Shown: piece by piece, positions 31,201 through 37,200 of the stretch
How the letters are laid out: every line of letters begins with the position of its first letter
Position numbering within the stretch: the stretch's first letter is position 1
DNA from: Owenia fusiformis
Lineage: Eukaryota > Annelida > Polychaeta > Sabellida > Oweniidae
DNA: 64,000 nt
NCBI GenBank assembly: GCA_903813345.2
Contig: CAIIXF020000002.1
Coordinates: 30,126,926 to 30,190,925 of the forward strand
Direction: 5' to 3'
The notes under the pieces: generated by a model
Told to the model about the DNA's origin: nothing
What the model saw: the letters and a program-made list of their open reading frames with translations, nothing else
The model's database searches: none
Made by a program: the position numbers and the translations under genes

Positions 31201-34200
31201 AGTTCCATGTAATATTGTTATTTCAATTGAAATAATTTCTGTGATGTTTGCATTGCTGTTTATTCCAGTTATACTGTGATTTGTAATTGTAAGGCATATA
31301 TTAGAAAATGAATAGCTAATCGGACTTGACATTTTACTTCCAAGGTACACTAAATAAATATTAACATTGCTTCATTAAATGGTGACTTTAACAACTAAAT
31401 GTTACAGCCAAAAATACTTTGTCTTATTATACAATTGACAAGGTAATGCACTAGCTATAGAGTGTTATTATATAATATGACTGGACAAGGACTATAATGT
31501 ACTTTAAGTTAACCTTAGTTCAATAGCCTATACTTCAATGCAAGTTCAATTTTATTCAAGGCCAACACTTATAGAAAACTAGCAACCCCATGGAGGTGTA
31601 AAGCAAAAATGAATTATTCTTAACAATTGCCAAAATCCTACAACTTTGCTTTACTTGTCATATCTATTTTCTCATAAATGTGCATCAGTGATCCTTACTT
31701 AACTTCCATATTTGGTCAGATATCTCAAAATCTTATTTTCTCACATTTTATATTTTTCAGACATCTCAGGGAACAGAATGGCACGTTCATTGAAAATATT
31801 TTTTTCTTTTTTATTCCAATTTAATACATTTAAATTAAAAATATGGTGCGTTGACTGCCAAAGTTAAAACATTGGTGCCAGTTCCTCTGAACACCTCAAC
31901 ATATAATATATAAGAATAACATTTTACCACTTGTATTGTTTACACGTTAGTCACAGGAAACTACTCCTGATGACCTACATTTGATCTTTAGCATATCACA
32001 AAACATGGTACATGTTGGCTATATCATTAGTATGATCACATACCACCCTCTACTTAAAATTTATGAAATAAGTATTAATGGCCCTTCCCCACATCAAAAG
32101 CTCAATCCATTCAAATATTTTGTGGTGACCTTTGTTAACTAACCAGTAAGCAGCTTAAAGGGTATCCTAATCAGCTTTGAGACTAAAGGTGCAACAATTC
32201 GTGCAAGGGGGGGGCATTCAACGATCAACACCAGTGTCAAAATATACTTAAGTTTGGATATTTCATCAAGACTAACCTATATTTTTATTATCTACAAAGA
32301 CACCCCCTGGATGAACATTATTTCAGCTGATATTCCTCTTGACACTAGGTTGATCTTAAAAATCTATAAGTGGGACAACCTTTATAGAAGCTTTGAACTG
32401 AATTTACACTTCTTAATGCTGAAATAGATAGTTTATCCATATGTTTTAAGAAATTAGGTTTGTCAAAGAAGATGTAAGCCATATGTTGATAGCTGATAGC
32501 TTAGAAAAAAATCAATTTTTTCGAATTTTCTCTATACAGTCCTTGTTGCCCCTTTAAGGCACATAATCAAGAAAACATTTTTGAAAAAATTGCCATGCAC
32601 AATGCACATGCTATTTCCTAGCACAAAATAGTACTAAGATGTGAATGTTTTGTAAGAAGGGTATAGACTGATAGCTTTCATCCTGTAACCTTTGATAAAA
32701 TCTCAATTCATCCTCAAAAGATTTTGTGATAAGGAGAGCTAAGTGAGTGTTGACAAAGCCTGAAGGACTTTTGGAGGTCATATATTACTAAAAACACAAA
32801 AACAGAGTTGTAATGTCATCAGCTCCTGCCAATCAACATGTGCAGTGGTCTCCCAGGCGTTTTAGCAAGTACATTTAGATAAAGCACCAATGTGACGTTT
32901 TGAAAACAGGCTTGCAACAACCTTAAAACCCATTTGCATGATGCAAATTGCATCCACCTCAATGAGAAGGATTATGTAAAATTGGCATTTTTAAACCATT
33001 TTCATGCATTATTACCATATTTATGATTGCCATATAAAATCAGTCTATTTTTAAAAAATTATGGGAGTTTTGTTAATTCCAGTTTATTGTAATCGTCTTG
33101 AAGATAAAATAATCGGTTTACGATGATCCTATAAACATCTTGAGAATGGATTATCCAAAGGATGGATGTGCATAAGCCAATATAAATCCTTGTACTAATC
33201 CATTTACTTCCTTGTTTCATTTACAGGATCATTTCATAAGACCATGCTATGTGCTAATATGTGATGGGTAAATCTAGATGTCAATTTTTCCTATAAAAAC
33301 AAATAGAAGATTTGTCAAAATAAAAATCTCCCTTTTGTTAATGATCTTTTAATACTATTCCTACATAAGCAGGCAGAGGTGTTTACGCAGTGACTTCAAC
33401 CTGTGAACCTTTGAGTAATATTCCAGGATCACACCTTTTATACTAAACTGTGAGCAACACCAAAAAATGAGCGTTCGATTTGCTAAATGATATGTGTTAC
33501 CCTTTAACATATAAAAAGGTATAATTATCAAAAGTGAAATTATTAGAGCTGCATGTTCCCTTTGGTTATGAAAGAAGAACATTGGAATGCAAAGATGAGC
33601 TTTTCTGACAAATGGTTTAGCTGGTGTTTGCTGGTTTATGTATGTTGCTGATGCACATATTATTAACATTCATATAAAGAAGTATGCCTTACTAAGTCTA
33701 TATCAAATGAGAAAGTTGTACTTACTGATGATGCAAACATTTGCCTCACTGAATCCACCTCGAGTATTATCTGCTTGAACCATAGTTCATATGCTACAAT
33801 CGTACAAAAATAACACCATATTATCTGCTTAAACCATAGTTCATATGCTACAATTATACAAAAATAACACCATTTTATCTGCTTGAACCATGGTTCATAT
33901 GCTACAATCATACAAAAATAACACCATATTATCTCCTTGAACCACAGTTCATATGCTACAATCATACAAAAATAACACCATATTATCTGCTTGAACCATA
34001 GTTCATATGCTACAATCCTACAAAAATAACACCATATTATCTGCTTAAACCATAGTTCCTATACTACAATTATACAAAAATAACACCATTTTATCTGCTT
34101 GAACCATAGTTCATAACCATAGTTCATATGCTACAATCCTACAAAACTAACACCATATTATCTGCTTGAACCATAGTTCATAACCATAGTTCATATGCTA

Positions 34201-37200
34201 CAATCCTACAAAAATAACACCATATTATCTGCTTGAACCATGGTTCATATGCTACAATCATACAAAAATAACACCATATTATCTGCTTAAACCACAGTTC
34301 ATATGCTACAATCATACAAAACTAACACCATATTATCTGCTTGAACCATAGTTCATAACCATAGTTCATATGCTACAATCCTACAAAAATAACACCATAT
34401 TATCTGCTTGAACCATGGTTCATATGCTACAATCATACAAAAATAACACCATATTATCTGCTTGAACCACAGTTCATATGCTACAAAAATACAAAAAGAA
34501 CCATAGTTCATATGCTTAATTAAAGGGGCAACAAGGACTGTAGAGAGAAAATTCAAATTTTTTTATTTTTTCTGAGCTATCAGGTCAATATTTGGCTTAA
34601 CATCTTCATTGACATACCTATTTTCTTAAAATGCATGGATAAACTCTCAATTTCAGCATTAAGAAGTGCAAATTCATTTCAAAGCTTCTATAAAGGGAGT
34701 CCCACTTATAGATTTTTAAGATTCACCACGTTTCAAGAGGAATATCAGCTGAAATAATGTTCATCCAGGGGGTTTCTTTGTAGATGATAAAAATATATGT
34801 TAGTCTTGATGAAATATCCAAACTTAAATATATTTTGACACTGGTCGATGATCGTTGAATGGCCCCCCTGCACTAATTGTTGCACCTTTAAACCATAGTT
34901 CATATGCTACAATCGTACAAAAATAACACCATATTATCAGTTTTTAAATATTAATAATTTGTTTCATGTCTTTTGGATGCCCATGAAGACTATGTCCATA
35001 AACATCAATAGACTTTCACCCTAAATGAGTATGATGTATCTCACCTTTTCCACTTTTAAGTCTACCCCCTACTTGGCCATACTAAACCTATGTTTGACTA
35101 TGTTTAAAGAGTCACTCTCCCTTATGCCTTGGTCACATATGCTCTGATCCATCGGCCGGCGCCTGGCCGATTGAGTGTTTTGTTCAATATTGTATTCTAT
35201 TTTGAATAAAATACTCAATCGGCCGGGCGCCGTAGTGAAAATCGGAGCAAATGTGACCAAGGCATTACTTGGCCATATTATTGACTATACCTTGATGCGT
35301 TATTATGAAGAGATGTTCATCATGGACTGGCTTCCCTGCTTTACTGCTTGCCAAGTCCTGGGCATCTAGAACCTTGTTCAACTGGAAAACATGGAATATA
35401 TAGGTTAAAGTGATATCAAAATTGTATTTGGACGAATTCTGATACTTCTGAGGCCATATACTTCAGTGATATCTAAGATGTATTAGGAAGAATTCTGATA
35501 CTCAGGACATAAGACTTCAGTGATATCAATCTGAAATGTATTTGAAAAAATTCTGATACTCAGGCCATAGACTACAGTGATATCAATCTAAAATGTATAT
35601 GGAAGAATTTTGATACTCGGACCATATGTGCCTTGTTAGGAATCCTACTAAAATGGAACTGAAAGACTGGCTGGAATCTTTCAGTATGAGGGAAGGAGCA
35701 ACTGGAGGTATTGGTGGGGAAGTGAATAACTACTGCAAAAGTACTATATGACATTGTTGACACCACTATATACAATTGTACACTTACCTGTAAATATTCC
35801 CCATATACCCGGCTGCCTTTTATGACATTGTTGACACCACTCTGATCTCCTTCAGCACTGCAACAAGCAATAAACATGGCATTAAAATTAAAAATGGCAC
35901 CACCTACCATTTGTTACAGAACACCAAATTTGTCCATTTGTTCAAAACACCAAATACCAACAGCTGGACACCAATTGCCAAACACCAACCATCAAACACC
36001 AACCACTAGAGGTGTGAATTCTTATTCAATCATCAATTAATTGATTGGCACATGTTTAAACGATATGATTCTTAATACTCAACTGATTTACAATAAGTTA
36101 ATCTTCAATATCCCGCCATGTATTAGCTTATATGACAGATGTCACTGACTGAGTGAGATCTGATTAGTCAGGTTGACATGCCAAGCTTAAGACTGAAACT
36201 GCCAAATAAACTAATTACCAAACTTATTACATGTTTAATATATATATAATTTGTAAAACGGTAAATGAAAGTAAAACAAATGAATTATTGAATTATCACC
36301 CACTAGAGAATTGCTGGGAAATTTTGTTAAATATCAATCATTTATTTTAGAATCAATTAAAATCAATGATTATCGATTAGTAATTTACCATCGGTGCATA
36401 CCACAGCCAACCACCAACTGCCACCACATAAACCTTAGAGACAATGATAAGATGTCACTACTTTTGGTGGTGATTTCGATGGATTTGACTTCTAATGGTG
36501 ACACCAATTGTGGTTATATGGCATACCAAAATTTATCCCGGATTCAGCTTGTATTTATGAATGCAACTATCGCCTATTGGCTACCAGATTAACCTACTAT
36601 TTTATGAGCAACTCATTTAAATAAGAATGGAATAGTGGCTGGAATGGAATATCTAAATGAGTTGCCCATAAAATAGTAAGTTAATCTGGTAGCCAACAGG
36701 TACCCGGTCGAAAAAACGGGTACCCAAAAAACGAAAAATACGAATATATAACATAATAAGATCATTAGAAAACGTGTAAGATTTGTTTTGAATTTACAAA
36801 ATGTATGTAACTTCCTTCAAAATTGAGCTAGAAAACAAATCTTATATGTTTTCTAATGATCTAATTATTTTATATATTCATATTTTTCATTTTTTTTGGG
36901 TACCCAGTTTTTTCAACCGGGTACCGGGTACCAAGTTTGAACCCAGCATGGAGGATTTTCTACCTGGTACCCGGTTTTTTCTACAAACCCCACACACTCT
37001 TGCCCCATGTAAAGTTCAAATCACTTTGGCTAACAGAAGTTTTCTAAATATGAGAAAAGTATTAAACAGTCCACTGAAAAGATTAAGTATGAGATAATTT
37101 CATTAGCAATTTAGCTAAAAGAAACAGTCAGTGCATTAAGGTCAGCCATTCTCAAGGAAAATATGGACTCAATTTCTTAAAGCATTTTTCTTACATTATA

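Follow-up and report, generated by a model that had tools for sequence, protein, structure and literature searches.

In a window of 64,000 nucleotides from Owenia fusiformis (the whole stretch of DNA that was analysed; positions below are those of the window unless another locus is named), an intron of a tryptophan 2,3-dioxygenase (TDO) gene ends in a series of near-identical copies of its own 3' splice site. Where do these copies come from, and do they change the protein? The explanation that we propose, and consider quite probable, is that of an exon-boundary minisatellite, or mirage: an ancestral 54-bp duplication would have been followed by gene duplication and by expansion in the gene of the window (gene A), with the units as neutral passengers and a normal enzyme made mainly via the exon-proximal acceptor. 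An earlier note on this DNA had already proposed that the repeat derives from the exon and its acceptor and that the protein could be affected; it was right on the origin and on the in-frame potential, the functional consequence being probably minor given the decay of the units.

Structure of the array in gene A

The identity of the gene follows from matches to the Pfam family PF03301 and from the alignment of the translated true exon with solved TDOs. The exons found in gene A are open and, by inspection, have canonical flanking sites. Its N-terminal exons were not found with the one motif searched, which leaves the earlier numbering of the repeated exon as exon 4 without support. At the other end of the gene, two candidate last exons lie at 10209-9963 and 5398-5291 on the minus strand, perhaps providing alternative C-termini; in gene B, a nearby paralogue, a counterpart was found only for the second. 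The true exon next to the array occupies 33726..33793 on the minus strand and encodes, with the G from the preceding exon, 23 residues, its donor GTAAGT starting at 33725. The preceding exon ends in ...FIITHQ and the repeated codons start after THQ. Describing the repeat as built from active-site codons was thus inexact, since the histidine of THQ, which we take to be the distal active-site residue of TDO, sits in the preceding exon.

A 54-bp tandem array, with additional longer higher-order periods, was delimited by TRF at 33765-34501. Read on the minus strand, it holds 12 upstream acceptors and the true one, each unit being composed of about 25 nt of intron end, including the GTAG acceptor, and of the first 29 nt of the exon. 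An orphan unit lies distally at 34886..34938 on the same strand (acceptor 34906, intron flank CTGATAATA followed by TGGTG). Altogether 14 copies of the acceptor and exon start were located, 13 upstream and the true one, in agreement with the earlier count of about 14 units. Their first exonic bases are 34906, 34480, 34426, 34372, 34305, 34251 and 34197 in the upstream part, then 34130, 34063, 34009, 33955, 33901, 33847 and 33793, the last being that of the true exon. The units measure 54 bp, a multiple of three as had been pointed out; three of them (34372, 34197 and 34130) however measure 67 bp. The first of these, at 34306..34372 (minus strand), has an internal 13-bp duplication and an in-frame TGA, as do its two sisters, which start at 34197 and 34130. 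The unit at 34010..34063 (minus strand) has GTA TAG as first codons and hence an in-frame stop. All 13 upstream units carry the splice signal (GTAG acceptor), and the array has the structure by which a mirage is defined. Chance likeness does not account for it: the copies match the exon at E values down to 1e-9, whereas 30 of the 33 TDO exon stretches of the three TDO genes have no flank match at E<=0.01.

The limits of 33726-34938 first given for the repeat proved right at both ends; the portion at about 34520-34890 inside them is a dispersed repeat and not array. This MITE-like element (34521..34885, edges approximate), whose ends form inverted repeats TTAAAGG.GCAACAA recognised by eye, splits the distal end of the array and separates the unit with acceptor 34906 from the other units. 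It has at least 40 scored genome matches, itself included, with 93% identity or more, out of 2195 first-look candidates. Three further repeats were observed in its surroundings. An inverted copy of the same element, 89% identical, occupies 32184-32557, across the exon from the array. A palindromic dispersed element at about 35124-35265 has copies at about 11605-11743 and within the array of a kinase locus described below (L053). At 38146-38817 lies a 45-bp array which, read on the minus strand, showed no exon link recognisable by eye.

Paralogues and origin of the repeat

Three TDO genes were found in the genome: gene A; gene B, which shares its contig (C2) and lies in opposite orientation at a distance of about 157 kb; and gene C on another contig. 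A genome search with 301 bp of array sequence hit three regions, each within one of these genes; as this DNA search skips very common words, the result is no proof of absence elsewhere. Comparison of nine exon stretches gave an identity of 95.6% between A and B (876 aligned bases) and of 80.8% between A and C (844 aligned bases). Gene B contains two units with a period of 54, and its junction equals that of gene A except for one base. At the corresponding acceptor of gene C there is a single exon copy and no repeat (0 flank matches). That the three paralogues have 1, 2 and 14 copies of the acceptor bears out the derivation of the array from the exon and its acceptor. It is highly improbable that the array or its copy number arose from long-read assembly errors: tandem arrays are error-prone and the copy number may be wrong, but the variants by which the units differ are shared among them in an ordered way, the array is interrupted by a dispersed element, and nearly the same junction recurs in gene B. 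A genome search with the array sequence revealed no second haplotype of the locus.

The two units of gene B with their nearly identical junction, taken together with the single copy of gene C, suggest that one 54-bp tandem duplication probably predates the duplication that gave genes A and B and that expansion in A came later. Moreover, the distal A unit and its flank align with the first B unit and its flank (88% identity over 67-68 bases), which makes it probable that the first duplication preceded the A/B split, unless conversion spread it between the genes, and that the expansion is younger. Alternatively, the two units of B could result from contraction or from sequence exchange between A and B. 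The heptamer GATAATA is present at both edges of the repeated stretch, at 34938-34932 on the left and 33771-33765 on the right, which suggests duplication by short homology; it could alternatively represent a truncated extra repeat. The flank of gene B reads GATGATT instead.

We would accordingly order the events as follows. In the ancestor of A and B, on contig C2, a 54-bp stretch across the 3' splice site would have undergone tandem duplication, with slippage or repair between the short direct repeats GATAATA of the intron and GATAATA of the exon as the probable mechanism. The gene would next have been duplicated, one copy (B) now having two units. In gene A the array would have grown to 14 acceptors, partly as three-unit blocks and presumably through unequal exchange, and the MITE-like element would have split its distal end.

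Separately, the end of exon 3 of gene B (L007) and its donor are overlapped by degenerate 34-bp repeats detected by TRF, perhaps an old, decayed boundary array. The match of the exon to these repeats was not significant (E 0.13) and no event was counted there.

Acceptor choice and reading frame

To predict the products, each acceptor was read to the donor starting from the G that the preceding exon contributes. The earlier note held that every upstream acceptor could be read through into the exon and that at least four units share an open frame with it. Exactly 4 of the 13 upstream acceptors are open to the donor, namely 34009, 33955, 33901 and 33847 (minus strand, units at 33794..34009), whereas a stop is met from the other 9. 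The open ones would add 72, 54, 36 and 18 residues, respectively, which matches the predicted inserts in multiples of 18. The upstream acceptor of gene B is also open in frame.

Acceptor strength was estimated with a model built from 30 other TDO acceptors read by eye, many of them homologous between genes, over 18 scored positions and without a branch point, which gives a rough ranking only (leave-one-out median 4.2, range -3.0 to 8.8). With a score of -0.73, the true acceptor is the lowest, tied with 4 of the other 13, and the corresponding acceptor of gene C scores 8.95. In four units an extra AG lies 8 bases upstream of the acceptor, scoring 2.7 in three of them and 1.1 in one; the sites at 2.7 are the top-scoring AGs of the whole intron and are decoys within the array. 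Since the modelled true acceptor is no stronger than the upstream copies, acceptor sequence gives no reason why the true exon should be preferred, and leaky in-frame splicing from upstream acceptors is plausible. That no upstream copy scores below the true acceptor and that the best AGs are array decoys, according to this model, both speak against our passenger reading.

We then considered constraint on the copies. Over 12 units (the true one among them, 34906 and 34480 omitted as incomplete and the 13-bp duplication cut out of three), pairwise divergence was 0.066 in the exonic part and 0.048 in the intronic part; without the true unit (11 units) the values were 0.071 and 0.047. Among 7 variable exonic sites, 2 are synonymous, 4 missense and 1 a stop by reading. 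As exonic and intronic parts diverge alike, the copies look neutral, and neither the divergence nor the variable sites support coding constraint on the open frame. The effect of an insert was evaluated by a PDB sequence search. The normal segment matched 9 distinct TDO sequences, with equal range lengths in query and chain in all 9, and the 4 alignments displayed have no gaps. After addition of one 18-residue unit, the same 9 TDOs matched only to 2 or 3 residues past the insertion point. An 18-residue insert would thus interrupt a stretch that lines up with solved TDOs without a gap.

These results bear on the possibility of a functional length switch, in which upstream acceptors would often be used and alleles or tissues would produce TDO lengthened after KQII by 18n residues, with changed activity. 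Four upstream acceptors in frame, predicted strengths equal to that of the true one and an open frame in the two-unit paralogue B speak for such a switch. It is nevertheless quite unlikely, given the stops met from 9 of the 13 upstream acceptors, the absence of any sign of coding constraint on the units, the splitting by the insert of a segment that is ungapped against solved TDOs, and the frame shifts or stops of other such arrays in the genome (see below). In the mirage reading, the extra units would be neutral intron passengers and the normal enzyme would most likely come mainly from the exon-proximal acceptor. With 14 about equally weak acceptors and four upstream ones in frame, low-level leakage to transcripts with 18n additional residues or with stops would be expected.

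Comparable systems and other boundary arrays

The amphioxus mirages (Adh3, troponin C and the globins BflGb6 and BflGb9, with similar repeats in PGBD5) are, like the gene A array, minisatellite-like: an intron-exon boundary is repeated in tandem together with its splice signal. They lie on the acceptor or the donor side and their unit number varies between copies, as here. The array of gene A differs by its annelid host, the TDO gene, the 54-bp period and four upstream units open in frame, and its origin can be traced via paralogues with 1, 2 and 14 copies. On the host, the erythrocruorin linker family, presumably annelid, gave 3 matches on contig C6; a profile search for the GFP family had no match in the genome, a weak negative as the control was also silent.

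The lancelet mirages are reported to leave regular splicing undisturbed (PMC3087553, PMC3902484). RT-PCR data for Adh3 and globins are taken as showing this in PMC3087553, where the copies are nevertheless allowed as possible cryptic sites; the same paper describes two haplotypes with 6 and 3 units, respectively, and cites somatic instability at Adh3. Boundary repeats are also known outside lancelets, human tandem repeats at exon-intron boundaries being described, with alternative splicing, in PMC2812944. The Rogers model of intron gain by tandem duplication is cited in PMC3087553. As in that model and in the human repeats, tandem duplication in gene A multiplies splice signals, which may then serve as additional splice sites; unlike in Rogers-model intron gain, no new intron position is seen and the end of an existing intron is repeated. 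The kind of system is therefore already known as mirage and is not new. What is new is the annelid host, the series of 1, 2 and 14 copies in three paralogues, and the recurrence in other genes. A literature search only partly aimed at annelids or Owenia found no report of boundary arrays in annelids, which is no proof of absence. The locus adds an annelid to the places with exon-boundary minisatellites, offers a natural experiment on spliceosome choice among many near-identical acceptors, and shows early stages from which shifted splice sites or new introns could arise.

To see how frequent such arrays are, each exon match was compared with the sequence flanking it, for 33 TDO exon stretches, 30 long kinase matches, 60 kinase matches and 60 P450 matches. 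The first 30 kinase loci are biased to long matches, and the sets of 60 were hand-picked from 144 kinase and 106 P450 matches listed, neighbours and related genes included. Arrays including exon sequence were found in 3 of 33 TDO stretches (A and B having one origin), in 0 of 30 and 2 of 60 kinase matches and in 0 of 60 P450 matches. The 183 exon matches thus yielded 4 independent exon-boundary events, some at acceptors and some at donors, 3 of them besides that of genes A and B. Undercounting is likely, the survey taking the ends of profile matches as exon ends and flanks of only 330-450 bp.

The three other arrays are all on the minus strand. In TDO gene C, the end of the next exon and its donor GTAAG/GTAAA are repeated at L011 ~5050-4190 (G000:C8) with an exact 43-bp spacing, giving 18 extra donors and a period that shifts the frame. 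At ~500-30 of L053 (G000:C10:27469518-27470615), an exon end GTRSYMS and its donor form a 54-bp repeat broken by another dispersed repeat; the frame is open through adjoining copies and the GTAAGT donor is kept only by the next copy. At ~840-610 of L066 (G000:C2), an exon start with a TTTCAG acceptor is repeated at spacings of 52, 51, 51 and 52, with four upstream acceptors, three of which lead to an early stop and the fourth out of frame. We take L053 to be MAP2K-like and L066 CDKL-like, names given from sequence motifs. Frame keeping is thus no rule among boundary arrays, the 43-bp array shifting the frame and L066 giving stops or leaving it. It could still be imagined that boundary minisatellites are so common (4 events in 183) that near-identical splice sites stand in series at thousands of exons, those in frame (TDO with +18n residues, the MAP2K-like activation segment with +18) giving a heritable, individual-specific protein length via splice-site choice; we regard this as unlikely.

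Other candidates were set aside. Flank matches were obtained at 4 of the 60 kinase loci, of which L053 and L066 were kept; L047 was dropped for a 21-bp match present only in the extended query, and L101 as a 68% identical whole-exon copy. Two of the 60 P450 loci, L116 and L148, were not counted because they matched only in the 30-bp extension and their arrays stop in the intron. Those P450 introns contain, at L116 669-996 and L148 25-320, arrays of 50 and 49 bp ending about 10 bases short of the splice site.

Finally, the frequency of exon ends inside arrays was compared with array coverage, using exon-free arrays of period 20 or more detected by TRF. These cover 2.4% of TDO introns (1340 of 56,618 bases; 0 of 8,953 bases in gene C introns), 2.9% of kinase flanks and 3.0% of P450 flanks; with boundary arrays included, coverage was 4.8%, 4.7% and 8.8% for TDO introns and 3.7% for kinase flanks. 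A targeted process, in which splice sites would be preferred minisatellite seeds, e.g. through repair at R-loops or at proto-splice sites, could be read from the four independent events on both acceptor and donor sides and from the 4 of 66 TDO exon ends (6%, counting the exon 3 end of gene B with its 34-bp repeats) lying inside arrays against 2.4% of intron sequence. We nonetheless find it very unlikely: with 2 of 120 kinase ends and 0 of 120 P450 ends, the pooled figure falls to 6 of 306 (2.0%) against flanking coverages of 2.4%, 2.9% and 3.0%, and the two P450 arrays stop just short of the splice site. The pooled sample requires no more than arrays falling at random in a genome rich in repeats, although the TDO genes taken alone lie above coverage.
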